Shown one piece after another: positions 5,266 through 25,269 of a DNA stretch of 26,867 nt; the first letter of the stretch is position 1, and each line of letters opens with the position of its first letter. Both the position numbers and the translations under genes were made by a program. The notes under the pieces are model-generated. The model worked only from the letters and a program-made list of their open reading frames with translations, searched no databases and was not told the DNA's origin. Source of the stretch: a virus. The stretch lies in the IMG/VR virus record IMGVR_UViG_3300025127_000017, positions 64,001-90,867 of that record. One strand, given 5' to 3'.

Positions 5266-6699
5266 ATGATAATAGGAACAAAACAACAAGAAGCGATTTG
5301 GCATGAACTTGCTAATGGGACAGGAGATGTAATTGTAAATGCTGGTGCTGGCACTGGTAAAACATTTACAATTGTTGAAGGTGGAAACAGAACAAAGGGA
5401 GATAATATGGCTTTTCTTTGTTTTAACAAATCCATTCAAACAGAACTTGCAGAAAGACTACCAGACAATGTAGAAGCAAAAACATTTCATGCACTTGGAT
5501 TTGCTGCTATTCGTTCAGCAGGTATTAAAACAAGAGTAAATAACTTCAAGGTTAAGAATATTATTAATGATATTCTCGGTAAGGATTTCCATGCTGCACC
5601 ACTTTGTAAGTTAATTAGTTTAATTAAAGGTTCTATGGTTGAAGGAAATGACCGTAAATCAATCTTTGAATTGATTGACCGATATAATATTAACTTTGAA
5701 TCAGACCGAGAAGAACAAATGGCTATTGAAGCGATTCCTGCCATTCTTGCCGAATGCCGACGTAATCTTGCTATGATTGATTTTGATGACATGATTTGGA
5801 TTCCTTTGGTGGAGAATTTCCCATTACCGCAATTTGATGTTCTATTTGTTGATGAAGCACAAGACTTCAATGAAATGCAAAGACAGATGATTCTTCGATG
5901 TATCGGTAATAACCGAGTAGTCATTGTTGGTGATAGAAACCAAGCAATTTACGGTTTCCGAGGTGCTGATAGTAACTCAATTTCTATTTTTAAGAAAGAA
6001 TTGGAGAGTCTTGGTCGAGAAGTCAAGGAATTTTCTTTGTCCTTAACATGGCGTTGTCCAAAATCGGTTGTTTCTGAAGCAAACCGATTTGTCAAGGAAT
6101 TTGAATGCAAAGAAGATGCGATTGAAGGTCGAGTTATGGAAAATGCACCGTTTAATCCCCAAGAGGGAGATATGGTTCTATGTAGATACAACGCTCCTTT
6201 AGTTGGTGCTTTTTACGATTTGATTATGCAAGGTAAATCTGCATACGTTCTAGGTCGAGATATGACAAAAGGGCTAATTAATGCAGTAAACAAGATTACC
6301 AAGAATAAGAACATGGGCTCTGAAGAATTCTCGGTTCTCTTAGAACAAGATTTTCAATACAATTATCAGCGTTTAGTCAAACTAAACAAGGTAAATCAAG
6401 CACAATCTTTAGAAGATAAGTTTGAATGTATTCGCATTTTTGCAACAAAGGCATCAACTGTTGGTGGTATTATTGCAGAAATTAAGCGTGTATTTGATGG
6501 TAATGAAAAAGGTGAAATTATGCTTTCTACTGTCCACAAGGCTAAGGGTCTTGAGGCAGATAATGTTTATATTCTTGCAACAGAACGTATGCCACATCCA
6601 AAGGCTACTGACATGCGAGAAGAGATGAACATTTGTTATGTGGCTATTACAAGAGCAAAGAAAAATTTGTATTATTGTGGGCCAAAACCAGCACAATGA
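5266..6699 (+). CDS. UvrD/PcrA-like superfamily 1A DNA helicase (477 aa)
   Basis: This is an ATP-driven 3'-5' type DNA unwinding enzyme for replication or repair. Motifs appear in order: Q-motif region KQQEAI (6-11), Walker A AGAGTGKT (26-33), DEAQD (196-200), GDRNQAIYGFRG (222-233), TVHKAKGLEAD in the C-terminal half, and CYVAITRAK (457-465). It is shorter than cellular UvrD (about 700 aa) and has reduced insertion domains, like phage helicases such as Dda-sized proteins. I chose ATG 5266 because AAGGAGAT precedes it; a GTG frame from 5200 would translate the conserved RNA element. Confidence 0.93.
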   Translation: MIIGTKQQEAIWHELANGTGDVIVNAGAGTGKTFTIVEGGNRTKGDNMAFLCFNKSIQTELAERLPDNVEAKTFHALGFAAIRSAGIKTRVNNFKVKNIINDILGKDFHAAPLCKLISLIKGSMVEGNDRKSIFELIDRYNINFESDREEQMAIEAIPAILAECRRNLAMIDFDDMIWIPLVENFPLPQFDVLFVDEAQDFNEMQRQMILRCIGNNRVVIVGDRNQAIYGFRGADSNSISIFKKELESLGREVKEFSLSLTWRCPKSVVSEANRFVKEFECKEDAIEGRVMENAPFNPQEGDMVLCRYNAPLVGAFYDLIMQGKSAYVLGRDMTKGLINAVNKITKNKNMGSEEFSVLLEQDFQYNYQRLVKLNKVNQAQSLEDKFECIRIFATKASTVGGIIAEIKRVFDGNEKGEIMLSTVHKAKGLEADNVYILATERMPHPKATDMREEMNICYVAITRAKKNLYYCGPKPAQ

Positions 6700-6711
6700 G
6701 GTGAAAAAGAA

Positions 6712-6876
6712 ATGAACAGTTATTTAGAACAATTTAAAATGATAAAGGATATAGCAGACGAAGAAGATATTAATATTCTTTTAGAAGAGTTGCTAAGTAT
6801 TGTTGCCAAGCATGAAGGAAATGATTACGTTATTTCCTTGCTTGGTGATTATATCAATGAAATACTTGAGGGATAA
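6712..6876 (+). CDS. Small acidic helical protein (54 aa, unknown)
   Basis: ATG 6712 follows GAGGTGAAAAAGAA, a good ribosome site overlapping the helicase stop. The product is short, acidic and helical (EEDINILLEELLSIV), with no recognised motif. Translation is probably coupled to the helicase. Confidence 0.6.
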   Translation: MNSYLEQFKMIKDIADEEDINILLEELLSIVAKHEGNDYVISLLGDYINEILEG

Positions 6877-6878
6877 AT

Positions 6879-7079
6879 ATGATTAATTTTTGGAATAAAA
6901 TACTTCCTAATTATTGGGAAACATTCTGGTATGAACAATTACAGTGGGCTATCAACTGGTGTTGGAATAGTCCACAATATCAAATGTACGAATTAGTACA
7001 GGTAAAAAATAAAATAGAAGAGGCTATGTGGAATAGTAGTATTAATGATGATTATTATAAGTTTCCACCTGCGGCTTAA
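6879..7079 (+). CDS. Small tryptophan-rich protein (66 aa, unknown)
   Basis: The start lies two bases after the previous stop, with GAGGGATAAAT as ribosome site. The 66-residue product has eight Trp and many Tyr in its first half (NYWETFWYEQLQWAINWCW), suggesting an aromatic interaction surface rather than a membrane helix, since polar residues are interspersed. Family unknown. Confidence 0.6.
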   Translation: MINFWNKILPNYWETFWYEQLQWAINWCWNSPQYQMYELVQVKNKIEEAMWNSSINDDYYKFPPAA

Positions 7080-7094
7080 ATGGAGATGAAAAAT

Positions 7095-7238
7095 ATGTTG
7101 AACAAATGGAGAAATATAATAGAAATGAAGTGTGAATGCGAAATTAGCGTGAAATACGATGGTGATTGTAGCGTTAGTTTCGTTGATGCATGGAGAACGA
7201 AAGAAGAACTTTGTGAGTGTGAAAAGAATGAAGTGTGA
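7095..7238 (+). CDS. Small Cys-rich protein (47 aa)
   Basis: This gene has a strong ribosome site (GGAGATGAAAAAT before ATG 7095). Its Cys residues form C-x-C, a central Cys and a terminal C-x-C (MKCECE...DCS...LCECE), a plausible single zinc site. It overlaps the next gene by 11 bases in another frame. The string MKC.CE near its start resembles the start of that next gene (MKCEH). Confidence 0.5.
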   Translation: MLNKWRNIIEMKCECEISVKYDGDCSVSFVDAWRTKEELCECEKNEV

Positions 7239-7344
7239 ACATAAAGAATTTATTTATATTGAAGAAGATTTTGAAGAAGGAATTATGTATTGTGAATGTC
7301 TTGATTGTGGTAAGCAATTCAAGAAAACAATTCTATGTAGGTGA
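7228..7344 (+). CDS. Small zinc-finger protein (38 aa)
   Basis: I place the start at ATG 7228 (MKCEHKEFIYIEED) rather than at an earlier in-frame GTG. The product carries C3-H5 and C22-x-C24-x2-C27 plus a terminal Cys, a compact zinc-ribbon-like knuckle (YCECLDCGKQF). The CxxCGKxF form is typical of small zinc fingers in archaea and their viruses. It may bind nucleic acid or protein. Confidence 0.55.
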   Translation: MKCEHKEFIYIEEDFEEGIMYCECLDCGKQFKKTILCR

Positions 7345-7349
7345 TTAAA

Positions 7350-7544
7350 ATGGGAAAGATGAGTCAATTAAATGCCATGTTAGATAATGGTGCATCAGCA
7401 AAGCAAATTGCAGATTGGATTTTTAGTTTGAAAGTTCAACGTGGTGAAAATATTAACGAAGATACTTTTGATAAATGTCTTGAAACTGCAAAGATGTTTG
7501 TTAGACAAGATGAGGTGAAGAAAAATGATAGAGGACATGAGTAG
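7350..7544 (+). CDS. Small helical protein (64 aa, unknown)
   Basis: GTAGGTGATTAAA places a ribosome site before ATG 7350; a GTG at 7341 is in frame but lies inside that site. The product MGKMSQLNAMLDNGASAKQIADWIF looks like a helix-turn-helix-sized domain, but I see no firm family. It overlaps the regulator gene at 7525 by 20 bases, so the two are probably coupled. Confidence 0.6.
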   Translation: MGKMSQLNAMLDNGASAKQIADWIFSLKVQRGENINEDTFDKCLETAKMFVRQDEVKKNDRGHE

Positions 7545-7968
7545 AGAACATAAAATAGACAAACTAATTTATTCTTCAGTTTTTGAACACATTGATGAAC
7601 CAAAAGAACAATTTGTTCTACCTCCACCTAACAATAATGATATTGTTAGTTTGTTCGGTCTGACAAATAGAACTGCTGTTCTTCTTGATTTAATTGAAAG
7701 AACGCCTCTTACAATTTATGAAATAGATATTCCAAGAATTGCGAAAAAATACTCTAATGCACCTTCGACTAAGTTAAGTTTGAAAAATTCTTTAACTGTT
7801 AAACGAAACGCTTTAGACCATTTTGTTGAGCAAGGATTTGTTCATGTCTTGAAAAATTTTAGAAGTAAAAGAGGAAGACCGCAGTATATCTATCATTTAG
7901 ACGTAAATAATCCGATTATTCAAGGAATAATATCGCTTATCAGACTTGAGGTGAAAAAAGATGTTTGA
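7525..7968 (+). CDS. Winged helix-turn-helix DNA-binding protein (147 aa)
   Basis: This is probably a viral transcription regulator. After about 45 polar residues comes a winged-helix domain: RTAVLLDLIERTPLTIYEID (helix 1-2), KNSLTVKRNALDHFVEQGFVHVL (recognition helix and strand), and a basic wing FRSKRGRPQYIYHL. The RGRP plus hydrophobic strand is typical of ArsR/MarR-like archaeal regulators. ATG 7525 follows GAGGTGAAGAAAA. Its target is unknown; the MazG gene overlaps its end. Confidence 0.65.
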   Translation: MIEDMSREHKIDKLIYSSVFEHIDEPKEQFVLPPPNNNDIVSLFGLTNRTAVLLDLIERTPLTIYEIDIPRIAKKYSNAPSTKLSLKNSLTVKRNALDHFVEQGFVHVLKNFRSKRGRPQYIYHLDVNNPIIQGIISLIRLEVKKDV

Positions 7969-8284
7969 AAAAGAATGGAATAAATTAGCAAAAGAAGTCT
8001 ACAAAAACGCAGTTAATCATGGATTCTGGAAAGATGAAGTGAATGATGGCGAAAGAATGGCTTTAATTCATGCTGAAATAAGTGAAGCATTAGAGGCTTT
8101 ACGTGAAGGTAATCCTTCTTCAAATAAGATTATTGAGTTTAGTAGTCTTGAAGAAGAACTTGCTGATGCAATTATCCGTATTATGGATTATGCGTTTGGT
8201 AAAGATTTAGATATTGCAGGTGCTATACTTGCAAAGGTGGAATATAACACCAGTCGTGAATTTATGCATGGTAAATCCTTTTGA
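7961..8284 (+). CDS. mazG: MazG-like nucleoside triphosphate pyrophosphohydrolase (107 aa)
   Basis: Members of this all-alpha family hydrolyse (d)NTPs, or in phages possibly ppGpp or modified nucleotides, to monophosphates. The metal-binding pattern is visible: E39-I-S-E42 (HAEISEALEALR) and E66-L-A-D69 (EEELADAIIRIMDYA), the ExxE...ExxD signature. The length fits a minimal single-domain MazG. ATG 7961 overlaps the end of the regulator gene. It probably cleans or balances the dNTP pool together with the ribonucleotide reductase at 12319. Confidence 0.85.
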   Translation: MFEKEWNKLAKEVYKNAVNHGFWKDEVNDGERMALIHAEISEALEALREGNPSSNKIIEFSSLEEELADAIIRIMDYAFGKDLDIAGAILAKVEYNTSREFMHGKSF

Positions 8285-8293
8285 GGTGAAACT

Positions 8294-8443
8294 ATGGATG
8301 ATACACAATACAATGATGACGCAGAATATCTATTGAATATGATACAATCATTTCATTCTGTGTTATTAGAGAACAAGAACAAACCTGTTCGTAAGTTAAT
8401 AGAAGCATACGAACAGTATTTCAAATTCCAATTAAAGTTATAG
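8294..8443 (+). CDS. Small unknown protein (49 aa)
   Basis: GAGGTGAAACT directly after the mazG stop provides a ribosome site for ATG 8294. The product starts MDDTQYNDDAEYLLNMIQSF and is helical with an acidic start and a basic C-terminal half. No family is recognised. It is the last gene before the second structured RNA element. Confidence 0.55.
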   Translation: MDDTQYNDDAEYLLNMIQSFHSVLLENKNKPVRKLIEAYEQYFKFQLKL

Positions 8444-8469
8444 GCATATGTTTGGCCTTTTCAGACCTT

Positions 8470-8625
8470 GTTGGAAACGGAGGTTTAAAGGTAAAAATAC
8501 ACTTGGCGACGGTGTTTGGTATTCACCGTGAGTATTTTCCTCCAACTTTAGGGGTTTATCCAGTAATAACTGCAAATTTCATATGCACGGAGATAGTGGT
8601 CACAAAAACATGAAGCAGTTCCCCC
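8470..8625 (+). ncRNA. Structured non-coding RNA element, copy 2
   Basis: It shares with copy 1 (5060-5230) the block TTTATCC-A[AG]TAATAACTGC, then CACGGAGATAGTGG and GAAGCAGTT. The outer helix has changed on both sides together: GGGG (8551-8554) with CCCC (8622-8625) against GAGG/CCTC in copy 1. AACTGC (8568-8573) pairs with GCAGTT (8615-8620). The 5' part differs in sequence but keeps the layout: GTTGGA (8470-8475) with TCCAAC (8541-8546), inner AAAATAC/GTATTTT (8494-8538) and ACGGTG/CACCGT (8509-8529), and a crossing TAAAG/CTTTA pairing (8486-8490, 8546-8550). It lies just upstream of the gene at 8644. Confidence 0.7.
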
Positions 8626-8643
8626 GCCTTTATGGTGATAATT

Positions 8644-8844
8644 ATGTTAAAATGGTTAAATAATGTATTAAGAAAAGAAATATTCACAAGGAAACCCAAG
8701 ATAAGATGTCATGTGTGTTTCCTTCCTGCAACTCACAATTTGAGAATAATCAGTAGTGAGTTTGATTCTGTTGAAGAATCAGAAATAATAATAACAATAT
8801 GTAGTGGTTGTAATGAAGATATATATGAAAGATATAATTCCTGA
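8644..8844 (+). CDS. Small zinc-ribbon protein (66 aa)
   Basis: ATG 8644 follows GGTGATAATT; an in-frame ATG at 8632 lies ahead of that ribosome site. The product has CHVC near residues 25-28 and CSGC near 54-57, a four-Cys zinc ribbon, after a basic N-terminus (LRKEIFTRKPKIR). It directly follows the second structured RNA element, so any cis-regulation by that RNA would act on this gene. Possible roles are nucleic-acid binding or transcription. Confidence 0.6.
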   Translation: MLKWLNNVLRKEIFTRKPKIRCHVCFLPATHNLRIISSEFDSVEESEIIITICSGCNEDIYERYNS

Positions 8845-10993: not shown

Positions 10994-11065
10994 GGGCATA
11001 TGGTGTAATGGATAGCATTTTGGCCTTCTAAGCCGAAGATACGGGTTCGATTCCTGTTATGCCCG
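10994..11065 (+). tRNA. tRNA-Arg (anticodon UCU)
   Basis: Acceptor GGGCATA (10994-11000) pairs with TATGCCC (11058-11064), discriminator G11065. The D arm is like other tRNA-Arg(UCU) genes (AATGGATAGC). The anticodon stem TTGGC/GCCGA encloses CTTCTAA with TCT at 11027-11029, and the T arm is ACGGG-TTCGATT-CCTGT (11041-11057). CCA is not encoded. It reads AGA, the dominant Arg codon here. It is embedded between two genes, so it must be cut from a polycistronic transcript. Confidence 0.95.
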
Positions 11066-11091
11066 CTTATTCACAAAAGGAGATGAAAAAT

Positions 11092-11551: not shown

Positions 11552-11647
11552 TTGCATTTCGACAATAATGAAACAAGCGCACAACCCCAACGATTAGTAA
11601 CGCTTAAGTGGCTGAGGTATATGGAAGGAATGGAAGTGAGAATATGA
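11552..11647 (+). CDS. Possible TTG-started small protein (31 aa)
   Basis: AAGGAG (11537-11542) lies nine bases before a TTG at 11552, which opens a frame of 31 residues ending at TGA 11645-11647. The stop overlaps the next ATG as ATGA, the coupling form used throughout this region, and this is the main support. The product is short and basic at its end with no motif. Confidence 0.35.
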   Translation: MHFDNNETSAQPQRLVTLKWLRYMEGMEVRI

Positions 11648-11850
11648 TAACGCTAACAATTTTAAATGAAACAGGACATACAACGCTAACCTTATCGGAA
11701 AGCGAAGTAATTGAACAAATTGACACCCATCCGACCCATTGGGTTTTTATCAATGGTGAAATGGTTGCAAGAGAGCAAATTCGTGAAATTGCTTGGGATG
11801 ACGTTACAAGCGTCGATTTAACCCCTGCAATTGTTGGAGGTCTATATTGA
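11644..11850 (+). CDS. ThiS/ubiquitin-like beta-grasp protein ending GG-LY (68 aa)
   Basis: The product fits the ThiS/MoaD-type ubiquitin fold. An N-terminal strand pair (MITLTILNET, HTTLTLSE) is followed by a helix, the core strand WVFINGEMVAREQI, then DDVTSVDLTPAIVGG. The NGE-x-V-x-RE...D-x-V pattern and the glycine pair at 65-66 match ThiS. Family members are adenylated at the C-terminal glycine by a ThiF/E1 enzyme. Here two residues (L67, Y68) follow GG and would have to be removed, which a JAMM peptidase such as that at 18294 could do. ATG 11644 follows GGAATGGAAGTGAGAAT. It is the last gene before the terminator at 11884. Confidence 0.65.
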   Translation: MITLTILNETGHTTLTLSESEVIEQIDTHPTHWVFINGEMVAREQIREIAWDDVTSVDLTPAIVGGLY

Positions 11851-11883
11851 TTTAATTCAATATATTTCAAGCCACGAACTTTT

Positions 11884-11924
11884 GGGGGAGAAGGACTGTT
11901 GGGGTTCTTCTCCCCCTTTTTTTT
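11884..11924 (+). terminator. Strong hairpin and T8 terminator
   Basis: GGGGGAGAAG (11884-11893) pairs perfectly with CTTCTCCCCC (11907-11916), followed by eight T (11917-11924). It divides the + strand gene string into two blocks, the helicase-to-Ubl block and the ribonucleotide-reductase-to-clamp-loader block. Confidence 0.85.
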
Positions 11925-11938
11925 CATTGTTGATTATT

Positions 11939-12316
11939 ATGGATTTAAAATCTTTCATATCCGAAGAAGCCCTAAAAATGATGATGCAAATTAACGGTTG
12001 GAAATTAATGAATCCTACTGTGATAAATAATATTGCCGTATTTAAGGCAGATTTTTACGACAACGAATCAATTATAGCAGTATCTCCTAAAGGTTCTCAA
12101 ATTAGAAGTTTAGGAACTACTGTTGTTAAATATCAAAATAAAATATTCAATTCAATATCTGAACTAATAAAAGAGTTTGGAAACAAAGTAATAGACTCAT
12201 TCGATGAATGGCAATTTATCGAGGAAAAAGAATGGGTTGTTTTTAAGGAAGGTGTATGGATGTATTCCTTTACCACTTTAGATAAATTGCCTAAAACAAC
12301 AAAATTAAGGTGTTAA
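11939..12316 (+). CDS. Hypothetical protein (125 aa)
   Basis: I chose ATG 11939 (MDLKSFISEEALKMMMQ), since any earlier start would translate the terminator. No clear ribosome site precedes it, and the initiation mode is unclear. The protein shows alternating strands (AVFKADFYDNESIIAVSPKG, EWVVFKEGVWMYSF in part) and a central helix. No family is recognised. Its position just after the terminator makes it the first gene of the downstream block, although no clear TATA box is visible. Confidence 0.6.
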   Translation: MDLKSFISEEALKMMMQINGWKLMNPTVINNIAVFKADFYDNESIIAVSPKGSQIRSLGTTVVKYQNKIFNSISELIKEFGNKVIDSFDEWQFIEEKEWVVFKEGVWMYSFTTLDKLPKTTKLRC

Positions 12317-12318
12317 TT

Positions 12319-14178
12319 ATGACGACAGAAAAAGAGATTTTATCAGACATTACTGTGCATATGAAATATGCTCGGTATCAAGAAGAAGTACAAAGAAGAG
12401 AAACATGGACTGAAATTGTTAAAAGAAACATGAATATGCATATTAAGAAATATCCAGATTTAGAAAGCGAAATAGTAGATGTTTATGATAATTTTGTAAT
12501 CACTAAGAAAGTGTTGCCTTCTATGCGGTCAATGCAGTTTGGTGGTAAGCCTATTGAAATTTCTCCGAATAGAGTCTACAATTGTGCATATTTACCAATT
12601 GATTCGATTGTATCTTTTTCAGAAAGTATGTTTCTTCTTTTAGGAGGAACAGGAGTAGGTTATTCTGTTCAGCGACATCACATTGAAGAATTACCAGAAA
12701 TTGTTCAACCTAATCCGAATCGAACTCGAAGATACTTAATTGCTGATTCAATTGAAGGTTGGGCTGATTCTGTTAAGGTTCTATTAGAATGTTATACGGG
12801 TATTCGTTCTTCTTCTCCAGTATTTGATTATTCAGATATTAGACCAAAAGGTTCTCTATTAAGAACCAGTGGTGGAAAAGCCCCGGGTTTTCAGCCATTA
12901 AGGGAGTGTTTAGTTAAAATAGAAGGTATTCTTCAAAATATTTCTGTTGGCGAGAAATTAAAATCGGTTCAAGTTCATGATATTATGTGTCATTTGGCTG
13001 ATGCGGTATTAGCAGGTGGAATTCGTAGAGCCGCTATGATTAGTTTGTTTAGTGCTGATGATACAGATATGATTGCTTGTAAATCTGGTAATTGGTGGGA
13101 AAACAATGCTCAACGTGGAAGGGCCAACAATTCAGCAGTTATTCTTCGTCATCGAGTAACAAAAGAGTTTTTCATGGAATTATGGGAACGCATTCAACAT
13201 AGTGGTTCGGGAGAACCTGCTATTTATTTCAGCAATGATAAGGATTGGGGAACTAATCCTTGTTGTGAAATTGCATTAAGACCTTATCAATTTTGTAATC
13301 TTACAGAAGTGAATGCTTCAAATGTTACCGACCAATTTGATTTAGAAGCCAGAGTTAAGGCTGCTTCGTTTTTAGGAACATTACAAGCAGGATATACTGA
13401 CTTCCATTATCTAAGAGAAATTTGGCAAAAGAATAGTGAAAAAGATTCATTACTCGGAGTATCAATGACAGGTATTGCGTCTGGAGTCGTTGAGAAATTA
13501 GATTTAGAAATGGCTGCGTTTGCTGCTAAAATGGAAAATAAAAGAGTTGCGAATATTATTGGAATTAATGAAGCAAGTAGAGTTACTTGTGTAAAGCCAG
13601 CAGGAACTACTTCTCTTGTATTAGGAACTTCAAGTGGTATTCATGCGTGGCATGATAAGTATTACATTCGTCGGGTTAGAGTTGGAAAGAATGAAGCAAT
13701 TTATTCTTATTTAGCAGTTCATCATCCAGAATTAGTGGAAGATGAATATTTCAATCCAACAGAACAAGCAGTTATTTCTATTCCACAAAAAGCACCATCC
13801 GATGCAACAATTAGAACAGAAAATGTGTTTGATTTATTAGACCGAGTTAAGAACTTTAGCATTCGTTGGGTTCGTGAAGGTCATAGGGATGGATTGAATA
13901 CACATAATGTTTCTGCAACAATTTCAATTAAAGAAAATGAATGGGATGACGTTGGAGAATGGATGTGGATGAATAGACACTATTACAACGGATTATCTGT
14001 ATTGCCTTATGATGGTGGAACATACAAACAAGCACCGTTTGAAACAATTACAAAGAAAGAGTATGAAAAACTTGTAGGTAATTTATCTGAAATTGATTTA
14101 ACCCAAGTAATTGAAAGTCAAGATAATACAAACCTATCGGGTGAATTAGCCTGTGCAGGTGGAGAATGTGAAATCTAA
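12319..14178 (+). CDS. nrdJ: Adenosylcobalamin-dependent class II ribonucleotide reductase (619 aa)
   Basis: The enzyme reduces ribonucleotides to deoxyribonucleotides with a B12-generated thiyl radical and no separate radical subunit. Seen here are C89 (NCAYLP) and C326 (FCNLTEVN), which form the redox pair; N313-x-C315-x-E317 (NPCCEI), the radical and proton-relay triad; and the tail C612-x4-C617 (CAGGECEI), which shuttles reducing power. The spacing matches the monomeric Lactobacillus-type enzyme, but the chain is shorter (619 against about 740 aa), as in phage versions. ATG 12319 follows AAGGTGTTAATT. B12 must come from the host or environment. Confidence 0.93.
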   Translation: MTTEKEILSDITVHMKYARYQEEVQRRETWTEIVKRNMNMHIKKYPDLESEIVDVYDNFVITKKVLPSMRSMQFGGKPIEISPNRVYNCAYLPIDSIVSFSESMFLLLGGTGVGYSVQRHHIEELPEIVQPNPNRTRRYLIADSIEGWADSVKVLLECYTGIRSSSPVFDYSDIRPKGSLLRTSGGKAPGFQPLRECLVKIEGILQNISVGEKLKSVQVHDIMCHLADAVLAGGIRRAAMISLFSADDTDMIACKSGNWWENNAQRGRANNSAVILRHRVTKEFFMELWERIQHSGSGEPAIYFSNDKDWGTNPCCEIALRPYQFCNLTEVNASNVTDQFDLEARVKAASFLGTLQAGYTDFHYLREIWQKNSEKDSLLGVSMTGIASGVVEKLDLEMAAFAAKMENKRVANIIGINEASRVTCVKPAGTTSLVLGTSSGIHAWHDKYYIRRVRVGKNEAIYSYLAVHHPELVEDEYFNPTEQAVISIPQKAPSDATIRTENVFDLLDRVKNFSIRWVREGHRDGLNTHNVSATISIKENEWDDVGEWMWMNRHYYNGLSVLPYDGGTYKQAPFETITKKEYEKLVGNLSEIDLTQVIESQDNTNLSGELACAGGECEI

Positions 14179-14530
14179 TCGGGCTTTAAGAAACATTTCT
14201 TACGCTGATTTCAAAGCGTATGTTCAATTGAATGCAAAGAGATTCTCGTTAGAATCTCAAGAAAGATTAGAAAAAACATTTAATGTCTGCGACCAGTTAG
14301 AAAACGAACATGATAGAAAGGTAAGGTTATATAATGTGCTTTACCACAAGTGTTTGTGGGATATTGACGAAGCCAAAGAGGTTGGTTTCGTTCTTTTCCT
14401 AGAAGACGAACTTAAAGATGTTGGGGAAATGTTTTCTTATTACCGTAATAACGATATAAACTATATAGATGAAATAAATAATAAATATAGAGGTATGAAA
14501 AATGAAAGAAAAGAATCCAGACTTTGTTAA
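14168..14530 (+). CDS. Hypothetical helical protein (120 aa)
   Basis: It overlaps the end of the reductase gene. I chose GTG 14168 because GGTGGAGAAT precedes it; an ATG at 14153 is the alternative. The product is basic at the N-terminus then acidic and helical (RFSLESQERLEKTFNVCDQL). No family is recognised. Coupling to nrdJ suggests a linked role but does not show one. Confidence 0.55.
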   Translation: MKSNRALRNISYADFKAYVQLNAKRFSLESQERLEKTFNVCDQLENEHDRKVRLYNVLYHKCLWDIDEAKEVGFVLFLEDELKDVGEMFSYYRNNDINYIDEINNKYRGMKNERKESRLC

Positions 14531-14669
14531 AAGTCATAGAGCATACGGCAAAAGAGTAGCAACTCGTTGCCGCATTTGTGGGGGTCAATTATTGATTCCC
14601 GAAGAAATAAAAAGACAAGTTCACGAAGTATGTGAGAAAAAAATAGATGATAATATGTATATGATGTGA
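14502..14669 (+). CDS. Small zinc-finger protein (55 aa)
   Basis: ATG 14502 follows GAGGTATGAAAA and overlaps the previous gene by 29 bases. The product has CRICGGQL then H-x3-C (QVHEVC), a CCHC zinc knuckle resembling small HNH-less treble clefs, with a basic N-terminus. It probably binds nucleic acid. Confidence 0.6.
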   Translation: MKEKNPDFVKSHRAYGKRVATRCRICGGQLLIPEEIKRQVHEVCEKKIDDNMYMM

Positions 14670-14673
14670 TGAT

Positions 14674-15921
14674 ATGGAAGATGAAAAGAATAAATTAATA
14701 ATAAGAATAGGAAAGGTAGATGACACGCAAGCCCACTTTGAAACACAAATATTTTGTGATAACATTCGTTTAAACAAAATATGTCGAATCTTTCCTAGAA
14801 ACTTTGCACATAAAAAAGACCCAACTAATTCGGCAATTGCTGAATTTGTTAGTAAACAGTTAATAGGTTCTCGAAGAAGAGGCTATAATAACAATTATCT
14901 AGGTCTACCTAGAAGTGAAGATTTTGAAGTGTTTTTAACAATCGGAACATTACCTGTATTTATTCAAAGAAAGGGTAATCGTTTTTCTTTAAATGGTGTT
15001 GAGAAATCTAAAATCATTATTTGCGAAACTCTATCAAGAATTATTTATAAGTCTTGTTTTGAAGAAGATACTTCTGTACTTTTATCTGTTATGCATCACT
15101 ATCTAAATATGCCCGAAAATATTCGGCATGTACTAGAGAATCGTTTAGCATATTATTTCTTCGATGAAGGGTATCATCGTCATGATGTCTTAATCAATGT
15201 AGAACAGATTGGTTCAGATGAATTTGCACTAGAAATTTCTGATGGTGTTTGGGGAACCATTACTACTGCTAACCTAAATACTATGGTTAATTCATATGTT
15301 CACAATAAAAAGCGTGGACATTGGAAAGACTTAACCCCGTCAGTTCTCTTTGAACGATTAATTGGTCGCCCATGTTCTGAATCGGAACATAAACTTATGG
15401 TAGAGTTTTTGAAACAAAATCGAAAGGATGGTATTGTTGAAGATAAGGCGTTAGAACTTCTCCAAGAAGTAAATGAAAAATATGATAATATCTATGTATC
15501 TTGGGATGAACCCGATAAAAACGGAAATCGCTACCCTAAAGAAGTGCTCGTTCGTGGAAAAGGATATGATTGGAAAATTGAACCTTCTCGCTATAAAGCA
15601 AGTGGAACGCAGGATGTTCGTTCTTATGTTTGGGGAAGTGAAGAAACTCTTTGTTACGATAGAAATGGAAATAAAATCCTTGATGAAGAAGGTAATCATA
15701 TTAAAGTAACGAAAGGCGGTCATTGGAAAGGCCCAATATGCATTGATAATATGCAAAGTGGTTCTTCAATTGGTGACCAATTCGTTGCAAGAGCATTGGC
15801 ATTTCTAAATGATACTATGACAGTTTCGAGAGTTTCTACGATTAAGAGGTATTTAACTGATGAAGAAAATTCTCTCAGAAACCCTACTCTAACAATGGCA
15901 ATAAATCCTTTGGGGGAATAG
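14674..15921 (+). CDS. Large protein of unknown function (415 aa)
   Basis: ATG 14674 lies four bases after the previous stop (GTGATGAT region as weak ribosome site). The protein is soluble with no transmembrane segment. It has a mixed N-terminal half with repeated strands (LIIRIGKVDD, FEVFLTIGTLPVFIQ), a helical middle rich in Glu and Lys, and a Gly/Asp/Trp-rich C-terminal third (YVWGSEE...GHWKGPICIDNMQSG). I recognise no domain. It lies between the reductase and TFB genes; a replication or transcription role is possible but not shown. Confidence 0.7.
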   Translation: MEDEKNKLIIRIGKVDDTQAHFETQIFCDNIRLNKICRIFPRNFAHKKDPTNSAIAEFVSKQLIGSRRRGYNNNYLGLPRSEDFEVFLTIGTLPVFIQRKGNRFSLNGVEKSKIIICETLSRIIYKSCFEEDTSVLLSVMHHYLNMPENIRHVLENRLAYYFFDEGYHRHDVLINVEQIGSDEFALEISDGVWGTITTANLNTMVNSYVHNKKRGHWKDLTPSVLFERLIGRPCSESEHKLMVEFLKQNRKDGIVEDKALELLQEVNEKYDNIYVSWDEPDKNGNRYPKEVLVRGKGYDWKIEPSRYKASGTQDVRSYVWGSEETLCYDRNGNKILDEEGNHIKVTKGGHWKGPICIDNMQSGSSIGDQFVARALAFLNDTMTVSRVSTIKRYLTDEENSLRNPTLTMAINPLGE

Positions 15922-15923
15922 TA

Positions 15924-16784
15924 ATGATTAGTTGTGAAGAATGTGGATGTAGAGAATTCTCTTTTAATGAAAGACTAGGAGAAAAAGAATGTTCTAATTG
16001 TGGACTTGTGTTGATTTATGATGCCTTTGAAGAGCAGGTCATTCTCTCAAAGGAGGGTGAACTTGTAAGAAATCCTGATAATAATAGACTAGGCTCTATC
16101 ATTACAGGAAAGGGTTCATATAAGTTCAATCGTGGTGGACTAAACAATAATATGTCTACTCACATTAACAAAGCACTTGTGATGTCAAATATGATTCTAG
16201 CAAGATTAGGCTTTTCATCAATTAAGCGTGATGCTGAGATGATGTATATGTCTTTGTACGAAAAGAATGTTTTTGGTGCGTCTAATCTTGAAATCAGATG
16301 TAGTGCAATGGTCTATATTCTTCTCGAAGAAAATGGAACACCAGTAAAGACAAAAGATATTATTAAGGAGTTTGATTGTAATATTAAACTCGTAAATAAG
16401 ATGATTAGAAAGATTCGCAAACATAGGAAACCAAACATGAGAGATAACTCATTATTTAAGTTTAAGCGTGAACTTTCTAAATTGACAGACGACTTAGCCT
16501 TTCATCTGAAAGCAACAGAAGTTTATGAATTCTTTGAAGGAGTTATTCGAGATAGTCATTTCAACAAAGGTAAAAGTTATGATGCGACTATTTGTTGGAT
16601 TACAGTAAATATGTTCAATTGGCATCCTATCAATAGAGGAATGATTTCTGATAGGTTAGGATTAAGCACCGTAGCAATATGGAAGCAAACTCAATTAGTT
16701 CTTGAACTAATTGGTTTAGCAAACGCAAAAGAAGTCAAAGGTAAAACCTTTGCAGATTTAATAAATACAAAAGAAGAGGAATGA
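15924..16784 (+). CDS. tfb: Transcription initiation factor B, viral TFB (286 aa)
   Basis: TFB binds the TBP-TATA complex and recruits archaeal RNA polymerase. The zinc ribbon C4-x2-C7-x15-C23-x2-C26 is followed by a linker (VRNPDNNRLGSIITGKGSYKF, in part) that stands where the B-reader normally lies, then two cyclin-like repeats. The first runs from NMILARLGF to about residue 170. The second is around HLKATEVYEFFEGVI and ends with a helix-turn-helix-like SDRLGLSTVAIWKQTQLVLELIG. The length is close to cellular TFB (about 300 aa). ATG 15924 follows GGGGGAATAGTA. It could steer host polymerase to the viral TATA promoters. Confidence 0.88.
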   Translation: MISCEECGCREFSFNERLGEKECSNCGLVLIYDAFEEQVILSKEGELVRNPDNNRLGSIITGKGSYKFNRGGLNNNMSTHINKALVMSNMILARLGFSSIKRDAEMMYMSLYEKNVFGASNLEIRCSAMVYILLEENGTPVKTKDIIKEFDCNIKLVNKMIRKIRKHRKPNMRDNSLFKFKRELSKLTDDLAFHLKATEVYEFFEGVIRDSHFNKGKSYDATICWITVNMFNWHPINRGMISDRLGLSTVAIWKQTQLVLELIGLANAKEVKGKTFADLINTKEEE

Positions 16785-16786
16785 AT

Positions 16787-16945
16787 ATGGACGATAAACA
16801 ATTAATTTTTGAATTAGAACAAATAATAGAATACATAAGAAATACAGGAAGAATGGAGAAAAAGAAAGAAGTTTCTGGATTTTTCTTATCCATTATGGAA
16901 AAAGTATTGACACCAGAAGAATACCTTGAATGGAGAGGTGAATAA
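16787..16945 (+). CDS. Small helical protein (52 aa, unknown)
   Basis: ATG 16787 follows GAGGAATGAAT at the end of tfb. The product is a charged helical peptide (MDDKQLIFELEQIIEYIRNTG) ending EWRGE, whose codons overlap the ribosome site of the E1-like gene two bases on. No family is recognised. Confidence 0.55.
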   Translation: MDDKQLIFELEQIIEYIRNTGRMEKKKEVSGFFLSIMEKVLTPEEYLEWRGE

Positions 16946-16947
16946 AT

Positions 16948-17508
16948 ATGAAAAGAAAAATATTAGTAATTGGAGCAGGTGGAATTGGTTCGTTTTTGAT
17001 TCAGTTCTTAGATAAAGTTGGGCTATATGACATTACAGTTGCAGACCCCGACATTGTTGAAGAGAAGAACTTAACGTATCAAAACTTTAAGAAAGGACAT
17101 ATTGGACAGAATAAGGCATTAGTTATGAGAGATACATACTCTAGTGTTGGTTTTGGTAATACATTCAAAATTCTTTCAGAAAAACAAATGCAAGGATATG
17201 ACTTGGTTGTGTGTTGTGTGGATAACTTAGGAGTAAGACGCACGTTATACAACACAAGTCTTAAGTGGCTTGACCTTAGAGCGCAAGGTAGGAACTCGGC
17301 TTTAATTTCATCGCTTTCCGACCCAATGCTTTATGATAGCCTATTGGCAGGAGATGATAGAAGTTTCAGTTGTCAGGGAGATTCTTGGGATGGAACTAAC
17401 AAAAACGTTCAATTCATGCAAATTGTAATTGCAGGAATGGGCGCACAATGGACACAAAAATTCTTTAACGAAGAAGAAGTAAAAGATTTCGTTATGATTA
17501 ACCTATAA
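16948..17508 (+). CDS. E1/ThiF-like ubiquitin-activating adenylyltransferase (186 aa)
   Basis: Enzymes of this family adenylate the C-terminal glycine of a ubiquitin-like protein. Features are the Rossmann nucleotide loop GAGGIG (9-14), D33-P-D35 at the end of strand 2, NLTYQNF (41-47) in the place of NLxRQ, G53-x2-K56, and C90-V-D92-N with the Mg-binding Asp. SCQ at 141-143 gives a candidate thioester Cys (C142). The usual Arg of NLxRQ is Tyr (Y44). It is short (186 against about 245 aa for ThiF) and lacks CxxC zinc pairs. Partners in this window are the Ubl at 11644 and the JAMM peptidase at 18294. Confidence 0.85.
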   Translation: MKRKILVIGAGGIGSFLIQFLDKVGLYDITVADPDIVEEKNLTYQNFKKGHIGQNKALVMRDTYSSVGFGNTFKILSEKQMQGYDLVVCCVDNLGVRRTLYNTSLKWLDLRAQGRNSALISSLSDPMLYDSLLAGDDRSFSCQGDSWDGTNKNVQFMQIVIAGMGAQWTQKFFNEEEVKDFVMINL

Positions 17509-17521
17509 GGAGATGAAAAAT

Positions 17522-18307
17522 ATGGTAAAACAAAATAACAAATGGACAGCAGAACAAACAGCATTTATGTATTTGCATTTGAATAAAACAGCAAAGCAAA
17601 TCTATAAAAAGTTTGTAGACAAATTTGGAGAAGTAAGAACTTTTAAGTCAGTTGAAGTAAAGGCTTCTTCCTTGAGAAAGAATAAAGTTGGGTCTAAACT
17701 TGTGGCAAATACAAGAGCAGTTGGTAAAAAGATTAAGCCTAGCCCTAAGCCTACAAAAAAGCCTTCAAAGAAAAGTATTCCTAATAGGAAGGAATGTCGA
17801 ACTTGTGGAGTTAAGTTGACAAAAGATAACCAATATCCGTCAATGAGAAAGAATAACGCACGACAATGTAAAAAGTGTTGGAGCGATTATCTTAAGGAGC
17901 GCAAGAAACTTAAGAAGGTTCTTTCTGCAAAGACAGAAAAGGTTGGTTCTAAGAAAAAGCAATCTCGACCTAACATTACTGAAGATGCGGATATTATTCT
18001 TGCTGATAAGGATGAGCAAATTCTAAGGCTTAATCAATATCTTGAACAACGAAAGAAAGAGATTAAGAATCTAAAGGCAACAGTCAAGAATCTTAAACTA
18101 CAAATTCAAACTCTTACAGATACAGCCGTATTGTCTGAAAAATCATGGAAGGCAGCATTTGAGAAGTACACAAAGAAAATGGAAATTCTTTTGGCTGATG
18201 CAAAGAAAGAGCCTCTTACTCGTCGAGAACGACGAAAGTTGAAGAAGCAACAAAAACTACAAGCAAAATTGGATAAACTAGTAGGTGAGAATAATGATAC
18301 CGTATGA
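17522..18307 (+). CDS. Myb-like, zinc-finger and coiled-coil protein (261 aa)
   Basis: ATG 17522 follows AAGGAGATGAAAAAT. Residues 7-55 (WTAEQTAFMYLHLNKTAKQI, then R-x-F-K-S-V-E-V) fit a Myb/SANT-type helix-turn-helix. A Lys/Pro linker follows, then CRTCGV...QCKKCWSDYLKERKK near 92-125, a CxxC...CxxC treble-clef-like finger. A long coiled coil runs from about 158 to 240, and the end is very basic. It is very Lys-rich and probably binds DNA. It sits between the E1-like and JAMM genes and overlaps the latter by 14 bases, so it could be a target, scaffold or ligase-like partner of the Ubl system, but that is inference. Confidence 0.65.
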   Translation: MVKQNNKWTAEQTAFMYLHLNKTAKQIYKKFVDKFGEVRTFKSVEVKASSLRKNKVGSKLVANTRAVGKKIKPSPKPTKKPSKKSIPNRKECRTCGVKLTKDNQYPSMRKNNARQCKKCWSDYLKERKKLKKVLSAKTEKVGSKKKQSRPNITEDADIILADKDEQILRLNQYLEQRKKEIKNLKATVKNLKLQIQTLTDTAVLSEKSWKAAFEKYTKKMEILLADAKKEPLTRRERRKLKKQQKLQAKLDKLVGENNDTV

Positions 18308-18797
18308 AGAAGAATTAAAAAATCGAAGAGATTACGTTGAGGAATCAATTAAAGAAACATGGAATGCTAGAACTGATTGGTATAATGAACACTCAGATTT
18401 TGAACCATTTGCAGAAACAAGTTTCTTTGGTGTTATTTGGAATATGTCCACAAAAATCCTACCACACCTTGAAGTTCAAGTTGTAATTGACGATAACGAT
18501 AATTGTTTCGTATCTTCTGGTTCAACAGGTTTTGTATCTTTTATGCAACAACCAACAGGGATGAAATTACCGATTAAGTGTTGGATTCATACTCATCCTT
18601 TTGGTAGAGCATATTTTAGCGGAACTGATTGGAATACTGTCAATATTTGGCAGACAAAAATGAAAGAAGCATATGTTCTCGGTGGTCGAGAACATTTTGG
18701 TTTTTGGCAGAATACTGACCCACATACTCTCTTTATTCAAGAAAGCAATATGGGTGAAAGTTATTATCAAAATCAATACAGGGAGGAAGAAGAATGA
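18294..18797 (+). CDS. JAMM/MPN+ metallopeptidase (167 aa)
   Basis: The full JAMM zinc motif H99-x-H101-x7-S109-x2-D112 is present (WIHTHPFGRAYFSGTD), with E41 (ETSFFGVIW) as the likely catalytic Glu. JAMM enzymes cleave after the C-terminal glycine of ubiquitin-like proteins, either to mature precursors or to free conjugates. Start ATG 18294 follows GTAGGTGAGAATA; a GTG at 18285 lies within that site. The tail is REEEE. Its gene overlaps the upstream zinc-finger gene, one gene after the E1-like enzyme. Confidence 0.85.
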   Translation: MIPYEEELKNRRDYVEESIKETWNARTDWYNEHSDFEPFAETSFFGVIWNMSTKILPHLEVQVVIDDNDNCFVSSGSTGFVSFMQQPTGMKLPIKCWIHTHPFGRAYFSGTDWNTVNIWQTKMKEAYVLGGREHFGFWQNTDPHTLFIQESNMGESYYQNQYREEEE

Positions 18798-19487: not shown

Positions 19488-19594
19488 AGTATGAAGAATA
19501 TGAAAGAATCATAGAAGCGATAAGGGGATGCCCTATGTCTATAAAAGAAAATATAGCAATTACTAATTTTATTAGAGGATTGGTGAAAGAATGA
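19484..19594 (+). CDS. Small protein (36 aa, unknown)
   Basis: ATG 19484 and the stop both overlap neighbours as ATGA. The product starts MKYEEYERIIEAIRGCPMSI, close to the MKYEG start of the preceding peptide, and is helical. Its end (GLVKE) carries GGTGAAAGA, the ribosome site of the GroEL-like gene. Confidence 0.5.
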   Translation: MKYEEYERIIEAIRGCPMSIKENIAITNFIRGLVKE

Positions 19595-21105
19595 TTTTAT
19601 TCGGAGATGAAGTAAAGAAGAAGTTAATGGAAGGAATTAATCTTGTTGCTAATACGGTTAAACCAACATTAGGCCCACAAGCAAGAACAGTTATTTTGCA
19701 AGGTAATCCTCCAGTTGTAATCAACGATGGAGTAACAATCGCAAAGTATGTAAATTCTGAGGACGCTTTTGTTAATATGGGTATTCAGTTAGTTCAGAAT
19801 ATTGCATCAAAGGCTCAAGATACTTCTGGAGATGGAACTACAACGGCTTGTGTTTTAGCACAGGCTCTTTGTCAAAACATTCTTGATAATGGAGAAATGT
19901 ATAACCTTCATCAATTAAGGCGAGAATTACTTCTTGCTCAACGAAAAGTTGTTCAGTATTTGGAAGAAACTGCCAAAGCAATTAATGAAGACAATGTATT
20001 CGATATTGCCATGATTGCATCAAACAATGATGAGAGTATGGCTATTATCATCAGCGATGCAGTAAAGACTGTTGGTAAAGAAGGTATTGTTGCAGTAGAG
20101 GAATCTAAAACAAATAAGACTTATCTTGAAGTAAAAGAAGGCATTGAACTAGATGAAGGCTATCTAAGTCATCTTATGGCAAACACTGAAAATGGTGAAG
20201 CAGTATTTGAGAACCCTCTTATCTTTATGTCGAATCTAAACATTCGTAACTTTAAAGATATTTTACCAGTTCTTGAAATTTCTTCTGCACAAAGCCGACC
20301 ATTGTTAATTATGTGTAAAGGTATGGAGGGTTCAGCATTAAATAATCTTATTGCTAACGTGGTTGCAAATACGATTCAATGTGCTGCTATTCTTGCACCT
20401 AATTTTGGTGACGCACAAATTGATGAATTAGGAGATATTCAATCATTAGTCGGAGGTAAAGTATTTACTTCTGAAGCAAAGGATGACCCTCAATTAGTTT
20501 CATTAACAGAACTTGGAAGTTGCTTGAGGGTTGTGGTGTCGAAGGAGAGAACTATTCTGATTGGCGGAGAAGGTAATCCAAAAGATAAAATCGCTCAACT
20601 AAGGGGCAGTATCGAGGAAGCAAAGGGTATTGACAAAGCAAGATTGAAGCGACGATTGGCACGTTTAGCGGGTGGCGTTGCCATTATTCATGTTGGTGCT
20701 GGTTCAACCGTTGAATTGAGAGAAACAAAGGAAAGACTCGATGATGCTCTAAATGCAACTAAATCTGCGTTAAAGGGAGGAATTATCATTGGTGGCGGAA
20801 AATCATTGTATAATGCAAGAAAAGTCTTAGACATCGAACAAAAGGGAGATTTTATTGTGTATAAATCTTTAACTGCTCCTTTGCAAGCATTAGTAGAAAA
20901 TGCAGGAATTAGCATTGATAGATACGATGCGCTTCTTGATGATAATAGAGATATGGGTATTAATATGGTAACAGGTGTTTCTTGTGATTTAAGAGAAGCG
21001 GGAATCTTTGACCCCGTTCTTGTAACAATAGGGAGTTTTGATGCAGCCATGTCAATCGCAAACCTTTTCTTGACTACTGACGTAGCAGTATTGATGGGGG
21101 AATAA
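19591..21105 (+). CDS. groL: GroEL-like group I chaperonin (504 aa)
   Basis: ATP-driven protein-folding ring subunit. ATP-site motifs are present: TLGP (26-29), DGVTIAK (46-52) and DTSGDGTTTA (77-86). The apical domain (GYLSHLM...FENPLIFMSNLNIRNFKDILPVLE, in part) and the second equatorial part (ARLAGGVAIIHVGAGSTVE, ALKGGIIIGGG) follow in order, ending MSIANLFLTTDVAVLMGE. It is clearly GroEL/HSP60, not an archaeal thermosome. At 504 residues it is about 40 shorter than bacterial GroEL and lacks the GGM tail. A short GroES-like gene lies just upstream. It probably folds viral structural proteins. Confidence 0.95.
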   Translation: MILFGDEVKKKLMEGINLVANTVKPTLGPQARTVILQGNPPVVINDGVTIAKYVNSEDAFVNMGIQLVQNIASKAQDTSGDGTTTACVLAQALCQNILDNGEMYNLHQLRRELLLAQRKVVQYLEETAKAINEDNVFDIAMIASNNDESMAIIISDAVKTVGKEGIVAVEESKTNKTYLEVKEGIELDEGYLSHLMANTENGEAVFENPLIFMSNLNIRNFKDILPVLEISSAQSRPLLIMCKGMEGSALNNLIANVVANTIQCAAILAPNFGDAQIDELGDIQSLVGGKVFTSEAKDDPQLVSLTELGSCLRVVVSKERTILIGGEGNPKDKIAQLRGSIEEAKGIDKARLKRRLARLAGGVAIIHVGAGSTVELRETKERLDDALNATKSALKGGIIIGGGKSLYNARKVLDIEQKGDFIVYKSLTAPLQALVENAGISIDRYDALLDDNRDMGINMVTGVSCDLREAGIFDPVLVTIGSFDAAMSIANLFLTTDVAVLMGE

Positions 21106-21106
21106 A

Positions 21107-21229
21107 ATGGAGGATAGATTAATTAATGTATGTGCTGATGCTATTACCCTTTTGCACGTATTAGGACATCCTAATTTAGCAAATACCTTACAGGAAAGAG
21201 TTAATGCAATTATGGGGGTTCATGAATGA
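21107..21229 (+). CDS. Small helical protein (40 aa, unknown)
   Basis: ATG 21107 is two bases after the GroEL stop, preceded by GGGGGAATAAA. The peptide (MEDRLINVCADAITLLHVLG) is helical. Its stop overlaps the next start as ATGA. No family is recognised. Confidence 0.55.
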   Translation: MEDRLINVCADAITLLHVLGHPNLANTLQERVNAIMGVHE

Positions 21230-21621
21230 AAAGAGCAATTACTGTAACTTTACCTGCACCACATAAAGCACAGGTAAAATGTCCAATCTGTAAAGGAAAC
21301 AAATGCATTGTATGTAATATGACAGGTTCATTAAAGATTGATGTTGCACCTAAGATACCGATTCAAAGAGCGCATATTATAAAATATGTTTTTGAAAATA
21401 TGCACACCGTTGCAAATGAATTAACTCTTAAGTATGGTCTTGTTCCAGAAATAGGAACTAAAGAAGTATTAGAGATTAATGAAGGTCAATTTGAAATTGT
21501 TCAAATTTCGTCACTAGGCGGTGCTTGTTGGGTTGTAAATCGTTTGGATGATTTAGATACCCCTAGATACTTTACTTCCGCAAAGGAACTTGAAAAGTTT
21601 AAACAGGGGTGGATGAATTGA
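21226..21621 (+). CDS. Zinc-knuckle protein (131 aa)
   Basis: ATG 21226 overlaps the upstream stop as ATGA. The N-terminal region has CPICKGNKCIVCNMTGS (19-35), a tight CxxC-x4-CxxC cluster like a DnaJ-type zinc knuckle. A mixed alpha/beta domain follows (HTVANELTLKYGLVPE, FEIVQISSLGGACWVV). No further family is recognised. The last 13 bases overlap the PC4-like gene. Confidence 0.65.
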   Translation: MKRAITVTLPAPHKAQVKCPICKGNKCIVCNMTGSLKIDVAPKIPIQRAHIIKYVFENMHTVANELTLKYGLVPEIGTKEVLEINEGQFEIVQISSLGGACWVVNRLDDLDTPRYFTSAKELEKFKQGWMN

Positions 21622-24907: not shown

Positions 24908-25268
24908 TTTAGAAGTCTTTCTTGAGGAAAATCAAGAGGCTACTGAATTTATTTTTAATACTGATTCTTTAATCAGTCAAGAAGTAGGAACTGCTTTTAG
25001 AATTGCACTGCAATTGGCTTTGAATGTAAATGATGTAATATTGTTAGATGAACAGGCTATGGGATTTACATATGAAGTAGAAGAAGATTTGCCATATGAT
25101 TTAAAAGAAGAAGATATGCGATATAAATTTATGTTACATTTTGTTATAGGTGTTATTGCCATCGAACAGATGGAATTACTAAGGCAAGTATTAGAAATGG
25201 GATTAGTTGAAATGAATATTAACTATGACTTTGTAGAAATCAAAACTATTCAACAGAGTGGTGAATGA
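24900..25268 (+). CDS. Hypothetical acidic protein (122 aa)
   Basis: It starts at ATG 24900 (or the adjacent ATG 24897) inside the end of the histone-fold gene, after GAGGGAATTAA. The product is very acidic (SDLEVFLEENQEATEFIF, VEEDLPYDLKEEDMRY) with hydrophobic helices, and would suit a partner or DNA mimic, but no family is recognised. Confidence 0.6.
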   Translation: MSDLEVFLEENQEATEFIFNTDSLISQEVGTAFRIALQLALNVNDVILLDEQAMGFTYEVEEDLPYDLKEEDMRYKFMLHFVIGVIAIEQMELLRQVLEMGLVEMNINYDFVEIKTIQQSGE

Positions 25269-25269
25269 A

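Follow-up and report, generated by a model that had tools for sequence, protein, structure and literature searches.

Can a virus, here probably one of marine archaea, encode a complete machinery of its own for tagging proteins and removing the tags? The question is raised by three genes in the virus record IMGVR_UViG_3300025127_000017, which a preliminary description made from the sequence alone interpreted as encoding a ubiquitin-like protein (Ubl), an E1-like activating enzyme, and a JAMM peptidase. We analyzed positions 64001-90867 of this 90,867-bp record (26,867 nucleotides; hereafter, the window, to which coordinates refer unless another genome is named). The reading that we favor, with a probability of roughly 0.62, is that the three products form a virus-encoded, self-contained system of reversible protein modification by the Ubl that has no recognizable E2 and resembles the archaeal system of small archaeal modifier proteins (SAMPs), UbaA, and JAMM. 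The features at issue are the following.

11644-11850, plus strand: predicted Ubl of 68 amino acids with the C-terminus VGG-LY (AlphaFold2, Foldseek, 72 distinct relatives)
11827-11850, plus strand: the C-terminal end of the Ubl, A-I-V-G-G-L-Y-stop, in which the Leu-Tyr tail and the stop codon are the last 9 bases
16948-17508, plus strand: compact E1/ThiF-type adenylating enzyme of 186 amino acids, with Cys142 at the catalytic-cysteine position (Pfam ThiF, PDB profiles)
18294-18797, plus strand: predicted JAMM/MPN+ metallopeptidase of 167 amino acids, with E60 and H99-x-H101-x7-S109-x2-D112 (AlphaFold2, Foldseek, Prok-JAB)

These open reading frames (ORFs) agree with the preliminary description in coordinates, length, and motifs, that is, the ...PAIVGG-LY end of the Ubl, GAGGIG, DPD, CVDN, and Cys142 in the E1, and the full H99-T-H101-x7-S109-x2-D112 motif in the peptidase, where the catalytic-type Glu60 is present besides.

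On its own, the Ubl of the window matches no family significantly. Its AlphaFold2 model (predicted local distance difference test, pLDDT, of 84) consists of a beta-beta-alpha-beta-beta-short helix-beta arrangement with a disordered end, and the top 50 Foldseek matches in the PDB are dominated by ubiquitin, ISG15, SUMO, NEDD8, and Ddi1-UBL (best match, E = 4.7e-3, probability 0.99). In the viral fold library BFVD, giant-virus ubiquitin-like proteins recur; ubiquitin-fold proteins dominate the matches in both libraries, with probabilities up to 0.99-1.00. The product of the 11644 gene is predicted to adopt a ubiquitin-like beta-grasp fold; a different fold had been named beforehand as a result that would overturn the proposal. 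The epithet 'ThiS-like', which the protein had been given, suits the fold and not the sequence family. The ThiS Pfam model (PF02597) has no match in the record at E <= 10 (the Pfam scans, here and below, took in most ORFs of the record, with short ORFs incompletely sampled and, outside the window, only ORFs of at least 60 amino acids), and the hhalign probability for MoaD is 0.6%. E. coli ThiS does align with the Ubl, weakly, through the terminal GG (31% identity, P 0.004, probability 8.6%), and this alignment speaks for the main rival to tagging, namely, that the Ubl is a sulfur carrier of the ThiS/MoaD/CysO type: the E1 would make a Ubl thiocarboxylate that is donated to a host or viral acceptor (a cofactor, tRNA, or cysteine), and the JAMM would trim the tail or release the product in the manner of Mec+. 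The failure of the ThiS Pfam model and of Salipiger ThiS, which has no match to the Ubl in the profile comparison, counts against it.

The conservation of the C-terminus points to a modifier. Across the 72 distinct Ubls, VGG is invariant within a conserved A-[IV]-V-G-G motif, and the tail after it comprises two residues in 51, one in 6, and none in 15, so that every one of the 72 ends in a GG that is either exposed or followed by a short, putatively removable tail. The first tail position is variable, and the second is Tyr or Leu in 38 of the 51 two-residue tails. Processed modifiers show this pattern, a fixed GG before a short tail that can change. The profile of 46 sequences has a mean column identity of 76% and invariant N8, G11-T13, H29, P30, H32, W33, R43, W51, V57, L59, A62, and V64-G66; the median pairwise dN/dS (ratio of nonsynonymous to synonymous substitution rates) is ~0.16, a value obtained from pairs with high dS. 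The protein is acidic (isoelectric point of 4.2 for the window copy) and almost free of lysine, with none in 13 of the 46 members, one in 31, and two in 2, so that chains linked through lysine would have few possible sites. We also observed that the invariant His12, His29, His32, and Trp33 could form a metal site or an enzyme interface; to our knowledge, this pattern is not typical of ThiS/MoaD.

A different identity for the Ubl was suggested by weak matches to Pfam Inhibitor_I24 in 22 of the 46 members (best E 1.4e-4) and by an alignment of T4 PinA with residues 6-50 at 31% identity: the protein could be a regulator akin to PinA, the T4 Lon inhibitor, rather than a modifier, with the E1 and the JAMM unrelated to it. 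The window protein, however, scores 15.8 bits against a PF10465 cut-off of 27, the match stops before the VGG end, which is among the most conserved parts, and no entry named PinA appears among the ubiquitins in the top 50 of the fold search. Such a regulator would also leave the fixed GG, the short tail, and the strict link to the E1 and the JAMM unexplained. We rejected the PinA identity on the predicted fold and on the exclusion of the conserved GG end from the match, and consider a regulator of this kind highly unlikely.

The E1 is recognized by Pfam ThiF (PF00899) at 66.8 bits, with a cut-off of 28.1 (E = 2.2e-18), and its profile matches in the PDB include NAE1C (NEDD8-E1), UBA5, Cap2, MoeB, and Uba4. 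The hallmarks of the E1/ThiF family are present: the Gly-rich loop (G9/G11/G12/G14), D-x-D (D33/D35), Lys (K56), the Asp of C-x-D (D92), and the catalytic-position C142 are invariant, and N41 is conserved as well. In the alignment, Cys142 shares the catalytic-Cys column with MoeB, ThiF, PRTRC ThiF, and the crAss and jumbo-phage E1s; a second alignment places it similarly, but with the phage rows less well aligned. Being as similar to ThiF/MoeB as to any E1, this enzyme would also suit sulfur transfer, whereas the lack of CxxC zinc pairs and a rhodanese domain argues against it; the N-terminal RYxRQ segment is missing, too. The replacement of the conserved Arg of NLxRQ by Tyr, noted earlier for the window copy, proved to be the norm in the viral family (Tyr44 nearly throughout) without being universal, given that one divergent member has Thr (NETTQ). 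The crAss-like and jumbo-phage E1s likewise have no Arg at this position; by alignment, its absence is a feature common to other compact phage E1s. The invariant R111 and R115 in an unusual D-x-R-x3-R motif might compensate for it.

Several assignments of the E1 were tried and rejected. Membership in the UbaA, ThiF, MoeB, and PRTRC_ThiF equivalogs is refuted by scores far below the curated cut-offs (36.8 bits vs 450 for the UbaA model and 44 vs 144.75 for the PRTRC-ThiF model). A defense system of the CBASS type (cyclic oligonucleotide-based antiphage signaling system), with an E1-E2 and a JAB protein, was dismissed as only the E1 part of the E1-E2 models was matched and no E2 was seen. A quick tree, with its long branches, does not place the viral E1. 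The viral trio falls below the cut-offs of existing families (ThiF, MoeB, UbaA, and PRTRC ThiF, as well as the ThiS model).

The window JAMM alone has a weak Pfam match (E 0.005), and 45 of the 53 members of its family match Prok-JAB; E60, H99, H101, S109, and D112 are invariant in all 53. The AlphaFold2 model (pLDDT 90) has a JAMM fold, with Rpn11, Sst2/AMSH, Caldiarchaeum Rpn11, PfJAMM1, and CSN5 as the best Foldseek matches. Trimming of the Ubl tail by this enzyme is plausible. Because the 15 lineages among the 72 in which the stop codon directly follows GG all keep the JAMM, the enzyme probably does more than trim tails, and its retention fits deconjugation. A JAMM could act on host conjugates, and archaeal Borg elements carry many predicted de-SAMPylases, described as JAMMs (PMC12660748). 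The trio could be directed against the Ubl biology of the host, as a decoy or antagonist: the Ubl and E1 of the virus would compete with a SAMP-type system of the host, and the JAMM would strip its conjugates. A dedicated E1 and a Ubl with a conserved GG better fit an active private system than inhibition alone, and we regard antagonism as improbable.

If the three proteins work together, their genes should travel together, and they do. For each gene, other viral contigs contain dozens of relatives, with strand and order unchanged and with (nearly) invariant motif residues, more than chance would produce. All three genes are found in every distinct locus with sufficient flanks, whether the JAMM (66/66), the Ubl (64/64), or the E1 (65/65) is the starting point, and gene order and strand are identical in 119 of 119 loci checked, some of them overlapping. 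Loci that keep the E1 and the JAMM and lack the Ubl, which the preliminary description had held to be fatal to the idea, were not found among the related loci. When 45 window genes were compared with 28 loci that extend 9 kb on both sides of the E1, 11 genes were present in all 28, the Ubl, E1, and JAMM among them; the chance that three given genes are all core is ~1%, a figure that serves as a guide only as the loci were chosen by these genes. At least 316 viral stretches carry a gene for the JAMM. When bacterial and archaeal genomes were scanned with the Ubl profile, nothing was retrieved beyond two contigs of one Altibacter metagenome-assembled genome (NZTP01000030.1 and NZTP01000027.1), most likely misbinned virus DNA. 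Another oddity, IMGVR_UViG_3300021958_000021 (184,733 bp), contains two different copies of the E1 and Ubl ~90 kb apart, probably through the joining of two virus genomes during assembly.

The rest of the gene complement bears on the choice between tagging and sulfur transfer. At the thresholds used, Pfam detects no E2 in the record, where a divergent E2 is possible, and none of the sulfur-acceptor families MoaE, ThiG, TtuA-type, CysM, and rhodanese. The claim that an Ubl, an E1, and a JAMM co-occur in a virus with no detectable E2, the combination typical of sampylation, is supported by the Pfam scans and the co-occurrence data. We know of no E2 in haloarchaeal sampylation. Given that no acceptor families are seen in the record, the balance leans towards tagging. 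An acceptor could be supplied by the host, and a role like that of Mec+ would likewise account for the JAMM in tail-less lineages; sulfur transfer is nevertheless unlikely in our estimation, if less so than antagonism of the host.

Reversible tagging thus remains the preferred reading, carried, at the level of sequence and predicted fold, by the assignment of the three proteins to their families, the intact active-site residues (except for the arginine), the invariant GG, the strict co-occurrence, and the lack of a detectable E2. Several observations weigh against it. The E-values of the fold matches are modest, at best 4.7e-3 for the Ubl (PDB) and 1.4e-2 for the JAMM. Nor do the three genes adjoin one another, the Ubl and the E1 being ~5 kb apart. 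The trio is confined to one syntenic virus lineage, which gives its co-occurrence less weight than genes gained independently several times would carry; a single lineage with conserved gene order implies shared constraint, not repeated independent assembly. Finally, without both the NLxRQ Arg and the N-terminal arginine region of MoeB/ThiF, the chemistry of the E1 may be altered.

Because the active sites are intact and there are precedents in SAMP/HvJAMM1 and in Caldiarchaeum Rpn11, we infer the following course of events during infection. The Ubl would be made so as to end either in GG or in a tail of one or two residues, which the JAMM would remove where present. The compact E1 would then adenylate the exposed Gly at the expense of ATP, and the adenylated Ubl would probably be loaded on Cys142 as a thioester. 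From there, it would be transferred to lysines in proteins of the virus or the host, either by the E1 acting alone or with the help of an unrecognized partner, and the JAMM would also cut the Ubl off its targets. A more ambitious version of this scheme, which we advance tentatively and at somewhat less than even odds, is that of a complete viral conjugation-deconjugation circuit orthogonal to the system of the host, in which the modifier, the JAMM, and a minimal E1 that acts on its substrates directly all belong to the virus and serve to mark proteins of the virus or the host in the course of infection; the E1 would then perhaps be a distinct catalytic variant that runs without the two arginine regions of MoeB/ThiF.

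The rest of the record indicates what kind of virus this is. It encodes replication proteins (RFC, a split family B DNA polymerase, and two ATP-dependent DNA ligases) and structural proteins (an SU10-type capsid protein, portal, terminase, prohead protease, and tail tube), and the window additionally contains genes for an RNR-like protein, a TFB-like protein, a Cpn60/TCP-1 family chaperonin, and an SF1 helicase. This content agrees with the published descriptions of the order Magrovirales, tailed viruses of 90-110 kb linked to Poseidoniales archaea (PMC10768690, PMC12999244). Judged by gene content, it is probably a magrovirus-like tailed virus of marine archaea. The neighbors of the trio are:

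10994-11066: tRNA-Arg(TCT), as reported for a magrovirus (PMC5628999)
11294-11551, plus strand: core gene directly 5' of the Ubl, 85 amino acids, no assigned function, in 28/28 loci
14674-15921, plus strand: core gene between the Ubl and the E1, 415 amino acids, no family, one conserved Cys (C356), in 28/28 loci
15924-16784, plus strand: TFB/TFIIB-like protein adjoining the E1, with a weak match to the Pfam TFIIB zinc ribbon, in 28/28 loci
19591-21105, plus strand: chaperonin of the Cpn60/TCP-1 family (Pfam Cpn60_TCP1, 6.9e-41), in 25/28 loci

The 415-amino-acid core protein is, speculatively, a candidate partner or substrate of the Ubl system. The zinc-ribbon match of the TFB/TFIIB-like protein (E = 0.0022) is under the family cut-off, and the zinc-ribbon cysteines are conserved among relatives; this neighbor marks an archaeal virus and is also a possible substrate class. 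Elsewhere in the window, the core gene at 25258-25668 (28/28 loci) is LAGLIDADG-like by eye and possibly domesticated, and a strongly conserved core protein at 21226-21621 (median identity 78%) has a CPIC-x-GNKC-x-VC motif of the zinc-binding type. Many genes in 5200-26867 terminate in ...EEE; the apparent cause is an overlap of their stop codon with the Shine-Dalgarno-like GAGGAGGAATGA that belongs to the following gene. Furthermore, the structural module (L004, L005; G000, ~40-62 kb, minus strand) includes 13 proteins, not related in other respects, that begin with M-x-W-x-x-[ILV]-[LIV]-K ('MNWQxILK'); this common N-terminal tag may be a mark of cargo or of targeting.

Parts of this picture have been anticipated. 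A ThiF/MoeB (E1-like) gene is prevalent in predicted archaeal viruses, and ubiquitination has been suggested (PMC8276007). In the text searched, the magrovirus papers PMC10160649, PMC8651126, PMC5628999, PMC10768690, and PMC12999244 make no mention of ThiF, ubiquitin, or JAB; an earlier mention in Philosof 2017 or Prabhu 2025 is possible. In the literature searched, we found no report of a Ubl or a JAMM in archaeal viruses beside the ThiF/MoeB gene, and no lineage of prokaryotic viruses in which modifier, activator, and remover are core genes together, with the variable short tail on the modifier. Viruses are known to borrow or block host ubiquitin systems; the present locus suggests that this group of viruses marks proteins during infection with a tag that is its own. 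If functional, the trio, with proteins of 68, 186, and 167 amino acids, would be one of the most compact ubiquitin-like circuits possible, a test case for conjugation without an E2, and would make protein tagging a part of the infection program in apparently widespread viruses of ocean archaea. Core genes of 'function unknown' thereby become a directly testable set.

Known systems share different subsets of these components. The tails of phages lambda and T1 involve a phage-encoded Ubl domain (TAPI) and a JAB peptidase (TAPK), a case of a JAB with just a Ubl and no E1 (PMC1779556); that pair is a tail assembly module, whereas the viral trio lies among replication and transcription genes. The PRTRC plasmid system (ThiF, PRTRC-C, and others) similarly has an E1 on a mobile element, with a Cys aligned to Cys142, but the PRTRC ThiFs examined keep the Arg (NLTRQ/NVGRQ), the viral E1 is far below the PRTRC-ThiF cut-off, and the one PRTRC-C compared with the viral Ubl did not match. 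In crAss001 (gp77-gp76, 6259-8657), we observed a JAMM motif (HSHNNMATFFSGTD) in a protein that bears the annotation 'metalloprotease' and adjoins a compact E1. This pair resembles the viral one in the missing NLxRQ Arg and in the adjacent JAMM-type protein with H-x-H...FFSGTD. The crAss-like proteins are larger and come from viruses of bacteria, and the identity between the E1s is only 26-33%; a non-exhaustive search identified no gene for a GG-ending Ubl in crAss-like loci.

Two further parallels are cellular. In Caldiarchaeum subterraneum, the modifier has a tail after GG, and a single JAMM, Rpn11, which matches the fold of the viral JAMM, both matures pro-ubiquitin and deconjugates it, the unprocessed form being refractory to the E1 (PMC5654768); unlike the virus, this archaeon has an E2 and a RING E3. 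Haloarchaeal SAMPs are conjugated to lysines in a UbaA-dependent manner and removed by HvJAMM1 (PMC4443979). The viral system differs from this one in being encoded by a virus, in a Ubl that is missed by the ThiS Pfam model and mostly has a tail of one or two residues, and in an E1 that is much shorter than UbaA, has no NLxRQ Arg, and scores far below the UbaA cut-off. What the two have in common is the overall design: a GG-ending beta-grasp modifier, a single E1, and a JAMM able to reverse the tag (PMC4443979).

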